Origin: Streptomyces sp. GKU 895
Lineage (GTDB): Bacteria > Actinomycetota > Actinomycetes > Streptomycetales > Streptomycetaceae
Assembly (NCBI GenBank): GCA_002027195.1
Contig: MWJO01000009.1
Span: forward strand, 1-64,000
Direction of reading: 5' to 3'
Length of the DNA: 64,000 nt
The notes beneath the pieces were generated by a model. That model was not told where the DNA came from. It saw only the letters and a list, made by a program, of their open reading frames with translations, and searched no databases. The translations under genes were made by a program, and so were the position numbers. Positions 3,967-51,291 of this stretch are shown piece by piece; position 1 is the stretch's first letter; every line of letters starts with the position of its first letter.

Positions 3967-4779
3967 ATGACTGCCCCCCACCCACGCACGGCGCGCACCG
4001 GAACCGGCCTCCGGGTCCTGCGGGCCGCGGTGTTCGCCGCGGTCTGCGTCGTGCTGGCCGCGGGCGGGCACGCGCTCGCCTCCTGCGCCACGGTTCCGCT
4101 GTGGACCCTCGGCGCGGGATTCCTCGGGGCAGCCGTGGTGGCCGCACCGCTCGCCGGGCGGGTGCGATCGCTGCCGGGCATCGCGGCGCTGCTCACGGCC
4201 GGACAGGTCGTGCTGCACACGCTGTTCGGACTGGGGCAGCACACCGTCGCGGCCAAGCCGTCGATGGCCTCCATGTCCGACGCCTCACTCGTGGAGCAGG
4301 CCGCCCGCCTGGTCTGCGGGACCACCGCGGCGGCGATCAGCCCGGCCCAGGCGGCCCGCCTCCTCACCGAGGCCCGCCTCTACCCGGGCCCGCACATGCA
4401 CGCGTCCATGGACATGTCCGCGGACTCCATGTCCGGCGGTTCCTCCGTCTCGCTGCTGCCCTCCCTGCCGATGCTGCTCGGTCACGTCCTCGCGGCCCTG
4501 GCCGCCGGCTGGCTGCTGCGCCACGGCGACCTGGCCCTGCTGCGGCTGGCCGAACTGTCGGCGCACGGCGTCGCCGAGGGGGCGCTCGTACGGTCCCTGC
4601 GCGGGGCGCTCGCCCTGGTCCGCGCCCTGCGTGCCGGGCTCCCCGGCGCACCGCTGACCGGCCCGGCGCTGCCGCGCACCGCGCTGCTCGCGCCGGCGGA
4701 ACCCCGTACCACCGCACTCCAGCACACGGTGATCAGGCGCGGCCCGCCGGCCGCCGAGGTTCTCGTCCTCGCCGCCTGA
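3967..4779 (+). CDS. Met/His-rich membrane protein of the copper locus, function unknown
   Basis: 270 residues. It has about four hydrophobic segments (residues 18-36, 45-62, 72-86 and 160-178). Between segments 3 and 4 a loop carries a cluster of Met and His (HMHASMDMSADSM near residues 140-152), with an earlier SMASMSD. Such Met/His clusters often bind Cu(I). It is the first plus-strand gene before ycnI, sco, ecuC, copCD and dtpA, which also act on copper, so a role in copper handling is inferred from position and composition only. The C-terminal 60 residues are Ala/Pro/Arg-rich. I do not recognise a named family. Confidence 0.7.
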   Translation: MTAPHPRTARTGTGLRVLRAAVFAAVCVVLAAGGHALASCATVPLWTLGAGFLGAAVVAAPLAGRVRSLPGIAALLTAGQVVLHTLFGLGQHTVAAKPSMASMSDASLVEQAARLVCGTTAAAISPAQAARLLTEARLYPGPHMHASMDMSADSMSGGSSVSLLPSLPMLLGHVLAALAAGWLLRHGDLALLRLAELSAHGVAEGALVRSLRGALALVRALRAGLPGAPLTGPALPRTALLAPAEPRTTALQHTVIRRGPPAAEVLVLAA

Positions 4780-11363: not shown

Positions 11364-11947
11364 CGCGCCGAGCCGCGTTACCGGACCGTTTCCCGTGCGT
11401 TCGGGGAGCGTTTCCGTCCATCCCTACCTGCATATTTTCGTTATCCACAGGAGTTATCCACAGGCCGTCATCTCGACCTGGGGACAAGTCGACATGGAAG
11501 CGCCACCTAGTCGACAAATCGTCCTACAGTGCCCAACTTCGTCCACAGCCCCACAGGTCACTCTTCGTCCACCCGTTTCCCTTGATCAATCCTTTGGGGC
11601 GACCCATTTACACCCGAAAGTGGGCGTGAAGAGCGTTTGGATCGGGAATTCTCAGCACGCGGGATCCGATCGGGAATGATCAATTCCGAAGTCCACAGAT
11701 CTTTCGCACAGCCTGTGGATAACTCTGAGGCGCTGTGGATTCCTGTGGACGAAGCGGCCCCCAAGTCCCGCTCCCCGCAAGGGAATCGAGTCAACCCGCC
11801 GTTAACCTCTTGCTTCGTTCCAGGGAGTGAGACGCCTTTTATTGACACGCTCCCCTACACAGGGCATTTCCCCCATAACGGTATGCAAGGGGTCGCCGCG
11901 GAATAGTGAGTCGTGGGCGCTCACCCGGCACCGGTAGCCTTGAGCGC
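11364..11947. other. 584-bp non-coding region with a cluster of DnaA boxes
   Basis: No convincing gene lies between pheA and serS. Three perfect TTATCCACA boxes are present: plus strand at 11441-11449 and 11454-11462, only 13 bases apart, and minus strand at 11714-11722. TCGTCCACA-type boxes lie at 11539-11547 (plus) and 11744-11752 (minus), and an 8/9 match at 11479-11487. AT content is higher than in neighbouring genes. DnaA-box clusters outside oriC can titrate DnaA or regulate transcription; one near oriC has been reported to restrain initiation in S. coelicolor (from memory). The right end must also contain the serS promoter; a TAGCCT -10-like hexamer sits about ten bases before its GTG. 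Confidence 0.75.
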
Positions 11948-13225
11948 GTGATTGACCTTCGCCTGCTCCGTGAGGACCCCGACCGAGTGCGCGCGTCGCA
12001 GCGCGCCCGTGGAGAGGACGTCGCCCTCGTCGACTCCCTCCTGTCTGCCGACGAGCGGCGCAGGTCGTCCGGCGTCCGCTTCGACGAGCTGCGTTCCGAG
12101 CAGAAGTCGCTCGGCAAGCTCATTCCCAAGGCCTCCGGGGACGAGAAGGCCGAGCTGCTGAAGAAGGCGAGCCAGCTGGCCGCCGACGTCAAGGCGGCCG
12201 ACGCCGAGCAGCACGAGGCCGACGAGGAGACCAAGCGCCTCGCCCTCCAGCTCGGCAACCTCGTCCACCCCGACGTGCCCGTCGGCGGCGAGGAGGACTT
12301 CGTCGTCCTGGAGACGCACGGCACCATCCGCGACTTCGGCGCCGAGGGCTTCGAGCCCAAGGACCACCTGGAGCTCGGCGAGGCGCTGGGCGCCATCGAC
12401 GTCGAGCGCGGCGCCAAGGTCTCCGGCTCGCGCTTCTACTACCTGACCGGTGTCGGCGCCCTCCTGGAGCTCGCGCTCGTCAACGCGGCGATCGCGCAGG
12501 CCACCGAGGCCGGCTTCGTCCCGATGCTCACCCCCGCGCTGGTCCGCCCGCGCGCCATGGAGGGCACCGGCTTCCTCGGCCAGGCCGCGGAGAACGTGTA
12601 CCACCTGGAGAAGGACGACTACTACCTGGTCGGCACCTCCGAGGTCCCGCTCGCCGCGTACCACATGGACGAGATCCTGGAGGCCGACCAGCTGCCGCTG
12701 CGCTACGCCGGCTTCTCGCCGTGCTTCCGCCGTGAGGCCGGCACGTACGGCAAGGACACGCGGGGCATCTTCCGCGTGCATCAGTTCGACAAGGTCGAGA
12801 TGTTCTCGTACGTCGCCCCCGAGGACGCCGAGAACGAGCACAAGCGGCTCCTGGACTGGGAGAAGCAGTGGCTGACCGGCCTGGAGCTGCCCTTCCAGGT
12901 CATCGACGTCGCCTCGGGCGACCTGGGCGCCTCCGCCTCGCGCAAGTACGACTGCGAGGCGTGGATCCCGACCCAGGGCAAGTACCGCGAGCTGACCTCG
13001 GCGTCCAACTGCGACAGCTTCCAGGCGCGCCGCCTGGCCGTCCGCATGCGCGACGGCAAGAAGGTGCAGCCGCTGGCGACCCTCAACGGCACGCTGTGCG
13101 CCGTACCGCGCACGATCGTGGCCATCCTGGAGAACCACCAGCAGGCCGACGGCTCCGTCCGCGTCCCCGCGGTGCTGCGCCCGTACCTGGGCGGCCGTGA
13201 GGTGCTGGAGCCGATCTCCAAGTGA
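11948..13225 (+). CDS. serS: Seryl-tRNA synthetase
   Basis: 425 residues from GTG 11948 ([15 protein letters not shown]), the usual family start. The N-terminal tRNA-binding coiled-coil arm spans about 30-100. The class II catalytic core follows: the [10 protein letters not shown] substrate segment near 232, motif 2 in [21 protein letters not shown] (about 262-282) and motif 3 in [17 protein letters not shown] (about 380-396). It charges tRNA-Ser (and tRNA-Sec if present). The upstream gap carries DnaA boxes, and the mRNA may have a very short leader. Its TGA overlaps the next GTG start (GTGA), coupling a HAD phosphatase to it. Confidence 0.96.
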
Positions 13226-14046
13226 GCGACGCGCCTTCGACCTCGGCCGGGGGATTTCCCTACCGGCTGATCGCGACCGACCTCGACGGCACGCTCCTGC
13301 GCTCCGACGACTCGGTCTCGGACCGCACCCGTGCCGCGCTCGCCGCGGCCACGGCGGCCGGTGCCGCGCACATCGTGGTGACCGGCCGCGCGGTCCCCTG
13401 GACCCGGCACATCCTCGACGACCTCGGCTACGAGGGCCTCGCGGTGTGCGGGCAGGGTGCTCAGGTGTACGACGCCGGGGCGCACCGGCTGCTGACGTCC
13501 GTGACGCTGGACCGGCAGCTGGCCGGGGTGGCGCTCGCGAAGATCGAGGCGGAGGTCGGTCCGCTGTACCTGGCGGCCAGCCGCGACGGGCTGGACGGAG
13601 AGGTGCTGGTCGGGCAGGGTTACGCGCTCACCGGTGATCTGCCGACCACCCCCTTCACGGACGCGGCCGATCTGTGGTCCGCGCCGCTGAACAAGATCTA
13701 CATACAGCATCCGGAGCTGTCCGACGACGAGCTGGCGGAGGCCGCTCGGCAGGCGGCGGGCGGGTTCGTGAACGTCGCGATGGCGGGCGCGGGCATCGTG
13801 GAGCTGCTGCCGCTGGGGCTGTCGAAGGCGACGGGGCTGTCGCTGGCGGCACGCCGGCTCGGTGTGAAGGCCGCGGACACGATCGCCTTCGGTGACATGC
13901 CCAACGACATTCCCATGTTCGGGTGGGCGGCTCGGGGCGTGGCGATGGCCAACGCGCACGAGGAGCTCAAGGCGGTGGCCGACGAGGTGACCTCCTCCAA
14001 CGAGGAGGACGGGATCGCCGTGGTGCTGGAGCGGTTGCTCGGCTAG
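13222..14046 (+). CDS. HAD-IIB (Cof-type) sugar/nucleotide phosphatase
   Basis: 274 residues. HAD motif I is DLDGTLL (near 19-25), motif II the VVTGR strand (near 52-56), and motif [12 protein letters not shown] (near 226-235), with the large alpha/beta cap of the IIB subclass between. Such enzymes dephosphorylate small sugar or nucleotide phosphates; the substrate is unknown. It starts within the serS stop codon and is probably translated from the same mRNA. A paralogue lies at 24954-25859. Its stop overlaps the convergent gene's stop in a shared CTAG. Confidence 0.88.
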
Positions 14047-14480
14047 GGCCGGCTGCTGGGCCGGGGCCGGTCGGTGAAGCGGCTGAAGCCGGCCTGCAGG
14101 GTGTGGAAGGTGACGGTGCCGCCGCCGAGCATCTCGGCCTTGCGGCGCAGCTGCTCCGCCGCGTCCGGGCTCGGTCGGCCGTAGACGTCGATGGAGTTCA
14201 TGCGGATGAGCTCGCGGAAGGCACGGAACTTCGGTCCGCCGAGTTCCATGTGGAGTTCCAGGGACGCCGGGTCGGGGTGGACTGCCACCGTGGTCATCGT
14301 GGTCCCGGACTCGTCGATGTAGAAGCGGTAGGCGATCAGTTGCGGCTCGCGGGCCTCGATGAAATCGGCGAGGTCGAGCATGCCTTCCCTGACCTCGGCG
14401 AGCTTGCCTTCTCGGATGTCCGAGCGGTCGATGTAGTAGATGGGTTCCGTGATGTCCGCCATGCCTGTTTTGCCCGTCAT
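14043..14480 (-). CDS. Small conserved protein, probably ABM/dimeric alpha-beta barrel type
   Basis: 145 residues if it starts at ATG 14480; ATG 14462 (MADITEPIYYIDRSDIREGK) is an equally plausible start. The pattern of a strand, then REGMLDLADFIEAREPQLIAYRFYID, then DESGTTMTTVAVHPDPASLELHMEL, resembles the antibiotic-biosynthesis-monooxygenase or stress-responsive ferredoxin-like fold, but no catalytic motif can be named. It reads toward the HAD gene and its stop shares CTAG with it. The tRNA-like sequence lies just upstream of its start. Confidence 0.7.
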   Translation of the reverse strand: MTGKTGMADITEPIYYIDRSDIREGKLAEVREGMLDLADFIEAREPQLIAYRFYIDESGTTMTTVAVHPDPASLELHMELGGPKFRAFRELIRMNSIDVYGRPSPDAAEQLRRKAEMLGGGTVTFHTLQAGFSRFTDRPRPSSRP

Positions 14481-14505
14481 GGCGCCTGAACGTAATCGTG
14501 TCTTG

Positions 14506-14608
14506 CGGAGGATGCACGGATCGAACGTGCGCGGAGTTTCCCCCGACCTCGACTTGCTTTTAATTGAGCACAGCGCAAGCCGGTGCCTTGCCTCTCGGCC
14601 AATCCTCC
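14506..14608 (-). tRNA. Class II tRNA-like sequence (Ser-type body) with abnormal anticodon arm
   Basis: Read on the minus strand, a 7-bp acceptor stem closes perfectly (GGAGGAT at the 5' end with ATCCTCC, then discriminator G). T8, a GCC/GGC D-stem with A14, GG and A21, and A26 follow as in bacterial tRNA-Ser. The T arm is canonical (GCACG-TTCGATC-CGTGC). A variable arm GGGG-GAAA-CTCC is present. The stretch between A26 and the T-stem is 53 nt, about 16 longer than in a normal tRNA-Ser. It folds best as an 8-bp stem (CGGCTTGC/GCAAGTCG) with a 17-nt loop, so no anticodon can be assigned safely. No CCA is encoded. Either a decayed or an unusual tRNA. Confidence 0.6.
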
Positions 14609-14870
14609 GGGTGGGCGGCCCACGCGAGAGCGACATCGCGTGCTCGAAGCGGCCGCCCCGGGCAGTTCCGGGCGGTGGACTCGACGGTGGGGTAACTACA
14701 CCGGAGTCCTCCGCGGACTGCCCTGACGGGGGCTGGACGTACTGTCGTGCATGGACATCGCCCGGCTCCTCTCCCAGAACGTGGCGCCGGTGTCACTCTC
14801 CGGCGGGGACACAACCATCGTGCCTGTGCAGGGAGTTGGATGCCACTGAATTAATCGGCCGTCTGTTCGC
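14609..14870. other. Intergenic region; one possible 32-codon reading frame
   Basis: There is no conserved gene I recognise. A plus-strand frame 14751-14849 codes for a 32-residue peptide beginning MDIARLLSQNVAPV and ending VGCH. It lacks a clear ribosome site, although GGGGGCTGG lies 15-20 bases upstream. It could be a small protein or chance. Confidence 0.25.
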
Positions 14871-15107
14871 CTACCGGCGTCGCCACCTGCGGCGCCGCCC
14901 CTTGCTGAAGAACCACCCCGCCGGCGGCTCGTCGGAGCGCCAGGGCTGCGGTTCGGGGGCTTCCTCGCGCCAGCGGGCGGCGAGCATACGGGCTCGGGCG
15001 GACGGCTCCGAGGTCTCCGCGGAACGTATGAAGTCCTCGTCCAGGACGAGCCGGTCCCAGGTGTCGTCCCCGGACCGGTCCCGTTCGTCGTGGTGCGCGT
15101 CCGCCAT
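14871..15107 (-). CDS. Small conserved actinobacterial protein, function unknown
   Basis: 78 residues, polar and charged: an acidic N-terminal half (MADAHHDERDRSGDD, LVLDEDFIRSAETSEPSARARML) followed by WREE, the motif EPQPWRSDEPPAGWFFSK and a strongly basic tail RGRRRRWRRR. I recognise this as a small protein found widely in Streptomyces, with no known activity. GGAGG lies just upstream of the ATG. The basic tail suggests nucleic-acid or membrane contact, which is only an inference. Confidence 0.75.
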   Translation of the reverse strand: MADAHHDERDRSGDDTWDRLVLDEDFIRSAETSEPSARARMLAARWREEAPEPQPWRSDEPPAGWFFSKGRRRRWRRR

Positions 15108-51064: not shown

Positions 51065-51291
51065 GCCGTACACGTACCCGCCGGTCGGTGTCCGGCTACG
51101 TACAACGGACGTCCGAGCCTCCCCCCTCGTGGCTCGGACCGTCCTCGGTTCCGCGCGCGAAGAACCGCGCGAACAAGGCTAGTTGACTCTGTGTCAGTGT
51201 CCAATCACAGTAGCGACAGAGACCTATCGACAAATTTATAGTTGGGGCCCGGCCGGGGGCCGGCACAGGGCTCGGATGCGGAGGGCGTGGC

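Follow-up and report, generated by a model that had tools for sequence, protein, structure and literature searches.

A conserved tRNA-Ser-like gene with an enlarged anticodon arm adjoins a structured RNA in Streptomyces

The window, by which we mean the whole 64,000-nucleotide stretch of Streptomyces sp. GKU 895 DNA that was analyzed, carries a real and conserved locus that is not a simple decaying gene, namely, a probably non-decoding tRNA-Ser-like gene joined to an unregistered Streptomyces RNA. The reading that we favor, with slightly better than even confidence, is that a tRNA-Ser of the mobile-array type was captured near serS and became established as the 3′ portion of a structured RNA specific to Streptomyces, here in a form that does not decode. 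Observed in the sequences are the fold of the gene, its conservation and covariation, a near-constant spacing between RNA and tRNA, the redundancy of the tRNA, its affinity to a tRNA of a foreign cluster, and the scatter of the enlarged-arm form (class B) over the tree. A first-pass annotation of this DNA had drawn attention to the tRNA-like gene; the upstream structured RNA, the homologues with a normal loop (class A), the foreign affinity, and the scattered occurrence of class B go beyond it. The features are listed in Table 1.

Table 1. Features of the tRNA-Ser-like locus and its neighborhood, in window coordinates
Feature	Position	Strand	Basis or remark
serS, seryl-tRNA synthetase	11906..13225	plus	Pfam PF00587 and PF02403; ORF called mechanically, actual start may lie further inside
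HAD hydrolase gene, convergent neighbor	13222..14046	plus	Pfam PF08282; source of the tree
139-aa ORF 3′ of the tRNA	14046..14462	minus	no Pfam match; start chosen by the analyst
tRNA-Ser-like gene, class B	14506..14608	minus	fold, sequence, model R1 match of 160.9 bits
Acceptor stem	14608-14602 with 14513-14507	minus	fold, sequence
D arm	14599-14585	minus	fold, sequence
Enlarged anticodon arm	14550..14582	minus	fold and covarying stem in 31 distinct class B arms
Anticodon-arm stem	14582-14575 with 14557-14550	minus	8 bp, one G·U
Anticodon-arm loop	14574-14558	minus	17 nt, GCUGUGCUCAAUUAAAA
Variable arm	about 14546-14532	minus	fold, sequence
T arm	14530-14514	minus	fold, sequence
Discriminator G	14506	minus	sequence
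Three-way-junction hairpin, ends 4 nt before the tRNA	14613..14658	minus	alignments A1 and A2, covariation
Junction parts: outer stem, mini-hairpin GCUUCGAGC, inner hairpin	outer stem 14658-14651 with 14620-14613	minus	
Structured RNA core (model R2), three-way junction included	14612..14775	minus	R2 match of 169.9 bits, E 6e-27
Probable 5′ part of the structured RNA	14776..14847	minus	conserved AGUGGC... and GCACAG..., alignment of 75 loci; start from conservation only
78-aa ORF 5′ of the RNA, same strand	14871..15107	minus	no Pfam match; stop about 24 nt before the conserved RNA

The minimum-energy fold of positions 14608 to 14506 is a class II tRNA with a 7-bp acceptor stem (GGAGGAU/AUCCUCC), a 3-bp D stem, a long variable arm, and a 5-bp T stem with the T loop UUCGAUC; G1 lies at 14608, the discriminator G73 at 14506, and CCA is not encoded. 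The folding energy is -45.9 kcal/mol (z = -2.69), and 3 of 200 shuffled sequences were equally stable. With its class II cloverleaf, variable arm, G73, acceptor stem, and T loop the body corresponds to that of a decoding tRNA-Ser, and the departure lies in the anticodon region, where an 8-bp stem and a 17-nt loop replace a 5-bp stem and a 7-nt loop with a serine anticodon. The first-pass description of a complete tRNA-Ser body in which only the anticodon region is abnormal is thereby borne out with exact coordinates, as is the placement 1.3 kb after serS, which ends at 13225, leaving a gap of 1.28 kb, and lies on the opposite strand.

ARAGORN made no tRNA call anywhere in the window, and Rfam reported no tRNA either at gathering score for the whole window or at E 10 for 14400-14700. 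These gene-finder runs had been proposed as a check. The window gene was not called, whereas among 30 homologous loci ARAGORN reported tRNA-Ser(gct) for the 19 with an ordinary loop and gave no call for the 11 with an enlarged arm. Because 19 of 19 short-loop loci and 0 of 11 enlarged-arm loci were called, the enlarged arm is the likely cause of the missing calls. As an exception, the Rfam tRNA model detects one class B copy (L061). The sole Rfam match in the window at gathering score is the Streptomyces sRNA Scr3920 (RF02828, 142.2 bits), at 51104-51228 on the minus strand. The start of the 139-aa ORF 3′ of the tRNA was set by hand, since the mechanical ORF (14043-14636) would read through the tRNA; this ORF is absent from this place in at least four other loci (L014, L017, L019, and L029), in which the 3′ end of the HAD gene adjoins the tRNA. 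No consensus promoter or terminator was found for the RNA/tRNA unit.

Homologues were sought by BLAST and then with a covariance model, R1, comprising leader and tRNA and built on 30 sequences. Of 392 Streptomyces genomes, 158 have an R1 match at E ≤ 1e-10, more than chance would give; two or more of these matches are relics. The 158 genomes comprise the 150 strongest matches (at least 103 bits) and 8 genomes with a best E between 7e-14 and 2e-11, two of which hold relic or decaying copies (G133, locus L080, and G206, locus L283). The remaining genomes gave weak R1 matches near 1e-5, as expected of ordinary tRNA-Ser, or matches to the junction only or to relics (best 1.6e-7). R1 matches outside the genus, two in one genome and one in another, were discarded as tRNA-Ser genes of ordinary shape.

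Class frequencies were taken from the match spans of the 150 strongest matches, the 8 further genomes lying outside this classing, and loci L131 to L248, which were located via the junction hairpin, are unusable for frequencies. By span, 25 of the 150 are class B, and all 25 sequences were read; the other 125, part of which were read, have the length of class A, normally with a GCU loop. In the set of loci used for the tree (see below) the anticodon of class A is GCU in 69 of 69 arms, and the 27-43 pair is missing in 67 of 69. Four loci outside the main tree cluster (L009, L070, L129, and L130) keep G27·U43 like the cluster tRNA described below; everywhere else in the tree set, in class A as in class B, C27 is unpaired. 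A rarer form, by inspection, allows 7 bp around a 3-nt loop (L171, L193, and L247).

The enlarged arm was examined in alignment A3, which holds 31 of the 34 distinct class B arms (L074, L184, and L244 were hard to align and were omitted). Its stem is paired in 98.8% of the cells, compared with 26 to 38% in slid controls, and 19 cells carry changes on both sides, compared with a shuffled mean of 6.3. In 500 shuffles none matched the stem in cells paired, in cells changed on both sides, or in covariation score; the number of pairs with a two-sided change, which is 3, does not exceed the shuffled level, being reached in 170 of 500. Among wobble cells 35 are G·U and none A·C, which points to a structure kept as RNA on the tRNA strand. 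The compensatory changes in the long stem that the first-pass annotation had asked for are thus present across the 31 aligned arms. In the folds of all 34 class B sequences, neither the acceptor nor the arm has fewer than 6 pairs. Identity in the 3′ T-arm/acceptor part is 0.95 in these 34 sequences and 0.97 in class A, both upper bounds because some T-arm and acceptor positions are set by the search pattern, and it falls to 0.31 and 0.33, respectively, in the 3′ flank. The class B arm looks to be under selection and not decaying, because its stem pairs in 98.8% of the cells with compensatory changes, and the view that the body is selected stands as well, given the covarying stem and a body about 95% conserved next to a 3′ flank at background.

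These data bear on the possibility that the gene is a pseudogene, derived from a foreign tRNA gene that had become superfluous and in which the anticodon arm was the first part to be disrupted. The gene is dispensable, clear relics occur in six loci of other species (L078, L082, L085, L096, L139, and L283), and class B is scattered across the tree, all of which would suit decay. An apparently decaying copy is also found in L080, where the gene, around position 4461 on the plus strand, has a very long, C-rich runaway anticodon arm and an 8-nt T loop. A relic, however, would lose acceptor and T-arm pairs as fast as those of the anticodon arm, and such pairs are kept in the 25 class-B-span genes among the 150 strongest matches; together with the stem covarying over 31 arms and the body conserved above a background-level flank, this makes decay unlikely here. 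The "recent pseudogene" of the first-pass annotation is consequently not supported for the window gene, though true relics exist in other species.

Its second proposal, a small intron in the anticodon loop whose splicing yields GCU, has in its favor that the class B arm equals a class A arm with about 18 nt inserted after UUGC. However, when the 34 distinct class B arms were searched for one contiguous excision leaving 17 nt with U33-GCU and 3 or more stem pairs, L270 was the sole arm to allow it; the window's arm is among the 33 that do not. Most class B arms moreover read AGUC where class A has AGCC, and the insert belongs to a continuous covarying stem. We consider an intron extremely improbable. 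The remaining proposal, a non-decoding tRNA, fares better and is probable, judging from a tRNA-Ser-like body that appears selected and is altered in the anticodon region alone. The class B loop has the consensus RCUGUGUUYGAUCA and resembles the gene's own T-loop stretch GUUCGAUC; that the loop arose by duplication of this stretch is only a guess.

Upstream of the tRNA lies a conserved RNA that consists of the junction hairpin and about 120 nt before it. The spacer CACCC (the last C of the stem plus ACCC) separates the two parts in 155 of 166 loci containing both, and the other 11 have spacers of 5 to 7 letters; spacers of up to 12 were allowed, and some genomes were fetched more than once. Within the RNA 45 pairs were found, 16 of them with two-sided changes, and the covariation score was 0.158, compared with 0.090 in shuffled alignments, none of 500 shuffles being as high. 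Alignment A2 of this region comprises 25 of 32 chosen loci, the remainder having missed the search pattern, and the covariance model R2 was built on 25 sequences. The alignment of leader and tRNA contains 15 G·U and 1 A·C wobbles and clearly favors the tRNA strand; the upstream alignment A2, with 33 G·U and 19 A·C, gives a weak strand signal. A short plus-strand ORF in the conserved upstream stretch was rejected by inspection, since neither its frame nor its start is kept.

R2 was found in 77 of 150 Streptomyces genomes at E ≤ 1e-4, in 81 of 147 genomes across the order at E ≤ 0.01 (one genus of five), and in 11 of 188 genomes across the class at E ≤ 0.001 (one genus of 87); the structured RNA is Streptomyces-specific as far as searched. 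Rfam assigned it to no family, and at E 10 it returned only chance-level miRNA and RAGATH-32 matches. As to YrlA-type Y RNA, the Rfam models used gave no match at the locus apart from the tRNA. Among the first 150 genomes, R2 was present in 57 of 57 with an R1 match (E ≤ 1e-10) and in 20 of 93 without, a co-occurrence that is partly built in and not independent, as the two models share the junction hairpin. A pattern for the 5′ half of the tRNA occurred with zero mismatches only at this locus among the matches listed; the remaining listed ones are tRNA-Cys genes with 3 mismatches, apart from one decaying copy. Species without the tRNA have relics or other hairpins after the junction. In five loci (L086, L087, L089, L091, and L092), which have no tRNA, the outer stem of the junction hairpin is much longer, and one strand is T-rich past this stem in L089; the element is perhaps a terminator between the convergent genes.

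Near-constant spacing, co-occurrence, and the vicinity of serS would also be expected if the upstream RNA were a tRNA-sensing leader of the T-box kind with the tRNA as its ligand in cis. Yet no T-box covariance model matched even at E 10, no gene lies consistently downstream on the minus strand in the loci that were read, and the class B loop has no pairing preference for its own upstream RNA: the mean pairing energy was -16.61 kcal/mol with the species' own RNA and -16.54 kcal/mol with those of other class B species, the own RNA being the better partner in 15 of 34 cases. A sensing leader is therefore, in our estimate, highly improbable.

The extra tRNA-Ser is redundant for decoding, the ordinary tRNA-Ser(GCU) being kept. 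The window's own genome has four ordinary tRNA-Ser genes (GCU, UGA, CGA, and GGA), and an ordinary tRNA-Ser(GCU) was found in 147 of 150 genomes, the misses being G028, G120, and G139, the last a draft genome in about 1010 contigs that does have the extra gene. The acceptor stem and G73 agree with those of the host tRNA-Ser(GGA). All 84 distinct class A/C genes score best against a tRNA-Ser(GCU) of a foreign cluster when this is compared with five host tRNAs from the window's genome. Mean identity of the 84 genes is 0.762 to the cluster tRNA, 0.698 to host Ser(GGA), 0.642 to Ser(UGA), 0.631 to Ser(GCU), 0.629 to Cys, and 0.577 to Ser(CGA), and L129 reaches 0.828 with the cluster tRNA. The class B copy of the window also scores higher against the cluster tRNA (31.0) than against the host tRNA-Ser(GGA) (28.5), by a narrow lead. 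An origin from tRNA-Cys, considered on account of BLAST matches at 84%, was rejected, because full-length scores favor the cluster tRNA-Ser.

The reference tRNA-Ser(GCU) (L280) lies beside His, Arg, and Met tRNA genes in a tRNA cluster of another actinobacterial family. This cluster, read as two 1-kb stretches with 4 and 5 tRNA genes (the mobile-array criterion being at least 20 tRNA genes in a mobile context), presumably is a mobile array. The clusters in L280 and L281, both of genome G708, contain tRNA-Ser(GCU) and tRNA-Ser(CGA) that resemble the class A body. Since the class A body is nearest to the cluster tRNA-Ser(GCU), class A is likely the ancestral form. Partly similar tRNA-Ser stretches were seen in phages (12 records in each of two phage comparisons, mostly of non-Actinobacteria) and in plasmids (15 records); the full unit of structured RNA and tRNA had no match in the phage and plasmid collections.

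Such affinities would also fit a role in anti-defense, in which array-type tRNAs replace or shield tRNAs that are cut by anticodon nucleases, class A serving as the replacement and class B as an uncut form or decoy. tRNA arrays have been called a putative antidefense system in the accessible text of one report (PMC12803027), the body is nearest to the foreign-cluster tRNA-Ser(GCU) and has matches in phage tRNA-Ser genes and plasmid stretches, and states scattered over species would suit a shifting arms race. A class B tRNA, however, could not substitute for a cut decoding tRNA, and we regard this role as quite unlikely.

The distribution of the two arms was followed on a tree of the neighboring HAD gene with 166 loci, left from 189 rows after removal of those sharing both HAD end and arm; it is a quick tree in which 62 of 163 inner branches are open. 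The presence and absence of the tRNA require 20 changes, compared with 50.6 after shuffling for the no-tRNA label, which includes relics as well as genes missed by the strict pattern, such as L146. The tRNA was thus lost or decayed many times and is dispensable. Class A is clustered (34 changes compared with 52.8 in shuffles, none of 500 as low). Class B, in contrast, is dispersed nearly as widely as a shuffled label: it requires 25 changes, compared with a shuffled mean of 27.9, and 29 of 500 shuffles were as low. At least 14 of the class B changes are forced by well-supported branches, and class A versus class B alone requires 22 changes. Distances between class B arms do not track the tree, with a Mantel rho of 0.10 that was reached in 951 of 5000 permutations, and thus give no sign of long vertical maintenance of class B.

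In the sister sets that were read, the arm accounts for most of the difference between class A and class B loci, which often have details of the junction, the variable arm, or the 3′ flank in common. The arm therefore seems to have been repeatedly exchanged or converted over a tract of some tens of bases. A search for a donor of the class B cassette in the window's own genome found only the gene itself, and in 384 Streptomyces the cassette pattern matched 28 times, at the locus in 13 cases and elsewhere in 15, compared with 17 control matches; the one off-locus match that was read lies within an apparent coding sequence. We tentatively propose, as a possibility well short of even, that an arm cassette at this captured tRNA-Ser 3′ of a Streptomyces noncoding RNA has been swapped many times, independently of the species tree, between a decoding GCU form and the conserved non-decoding hairpin with the consensus loop given above. 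If this were true, one charged-tRNA platform would be switched between translation and a separate RNA function.

How the favored arrangement could work may be outlined as follows. After capture of a mobile-array tRNA-Ser near serS in Streptomyces, the structured RNA and the tRNA would most likely be made as one common transcript. RNase P recognizes the acceptor-T arm, and SerRS recognizes the long variable arm and the acceptor/discriminator, not the anticodon. RNase P would cut at the tRNA 5′ end (14608), CCA would then be added, and the tRNA fold might serve the maturation or stability of the RNA, be charged by SerRS as a chargeable noncoding platform, or both. Class B would keep the acceptor, T, D, and variable arms without decoding AGC/AGU, while in class A species the same slot would hold a chargeable, redundant tRNA-Ser(GCU) that probably still decodes. 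The presence of GCU in 69 of 69 class A arms argues for a use of the anticodon there, a point left unexplained by a module for processing alone, and classes A and B may do partly different jobs.

A seryl donor outside translation, used by an enzyme of cell-wall, lipid, or natural-product synthesis that takes Ser-tRNA, would equally call for charging, which is plausible for a body with a long variable arm, G73, and an acceptor stem like that of host tRNA-Ser(GGA). No aminoacyl-tRNA transferase was found, however, among the four nearest genes scanned with Pfam, and such a role explains neither the kept anticodon of class A nor the link to the structured RNA, so that we think it very unlikely.

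Pseudo-tRNAs are easily missed by gene finders, as was the window gene by ARAGORN and Rfam. Class B is conserved over dozens of species and has sister genes with a normal loop in near-identical loci. The locus thus offers a clean natural comparison, the same site and body with and without an anticodon, and a direct test of why a tRNA body is kept when decoding is impossible. The scatter of class B poses an evolutionary puzzle in its own right, whether very short recombination exchanged the cassette or conversion occurred repeatedly.

Among the listed matches in the open-licence literature, no description of this Streptomyces locus was found by title or abstract. One parallel in layout is eukaryotic: in MALAT1/mascRNA a tRNA fold lies 3′ in a noncoding RNA and is cut by RNase P during 3′-end processing. 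The Streptomyces locus likewise has a tRNA fold at the 3′ side of a noncoding RNA, unlike the eukaryotic case in its bacterial setting and in a cut that is here predicted.

The published work that follows is compared on the basis of the accessible portions of each source. From the list of Streptomyces coelicolor sRNAs by Panek 2008 (PMC2422843) itself, no entry could be placed here. The WblC regulon includes six tRNAs that are not named in the text seen, and the gene number of the region was not found in the main text of that paper (PMC7157823). The tRNA-Other of Bacillus cereus is a pseudo-tRNA outside translation that RACE places inside larger RNAs extended on both sides; it has a Trp anticodon, is poorly lysylated, lies at a genomic island, and can be deleted without lethality (PMC3399842). 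Our gene resembles it as a tRNA-like element probably outside translation and differs from it in its Ser type, its enlarged covarying anticodon arm, and the near-constant junction to a structured RNA (PMC3399842). Allo-tRNAs, selC* tRNA-Cys, and tRNA-Pyl are, like it, natural tRNAs with noncanonical arms, but they are described as active in translation, and those whose anticodon stem length is stated have 6 bp, unlike the 8-bp stem and 17-nt loop here; no arm of this kind was found among the noncanonical tRNAs in the accessible part of that review (PMC7609411). With the mobile tRNA arrays of Actinobacteria the locus shares a tRNA-Ser(GCU) body nearest to a cluster tRNA and redundant with the host set, whereas it is a single gene with no array or endonuclease seen, at a conserved chromosomal site and with a remodeled arm (PMC5966550, PMC12803027). 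GOLLD, the large RNA of mycobacterial tRNA arrays (PMC9569102), differs from the present RNA, which is shorter, has no Rfam match, and occurs only in Streptomyces in what was searched; in both cases a structured RNA adjoins an array-type tRNA.
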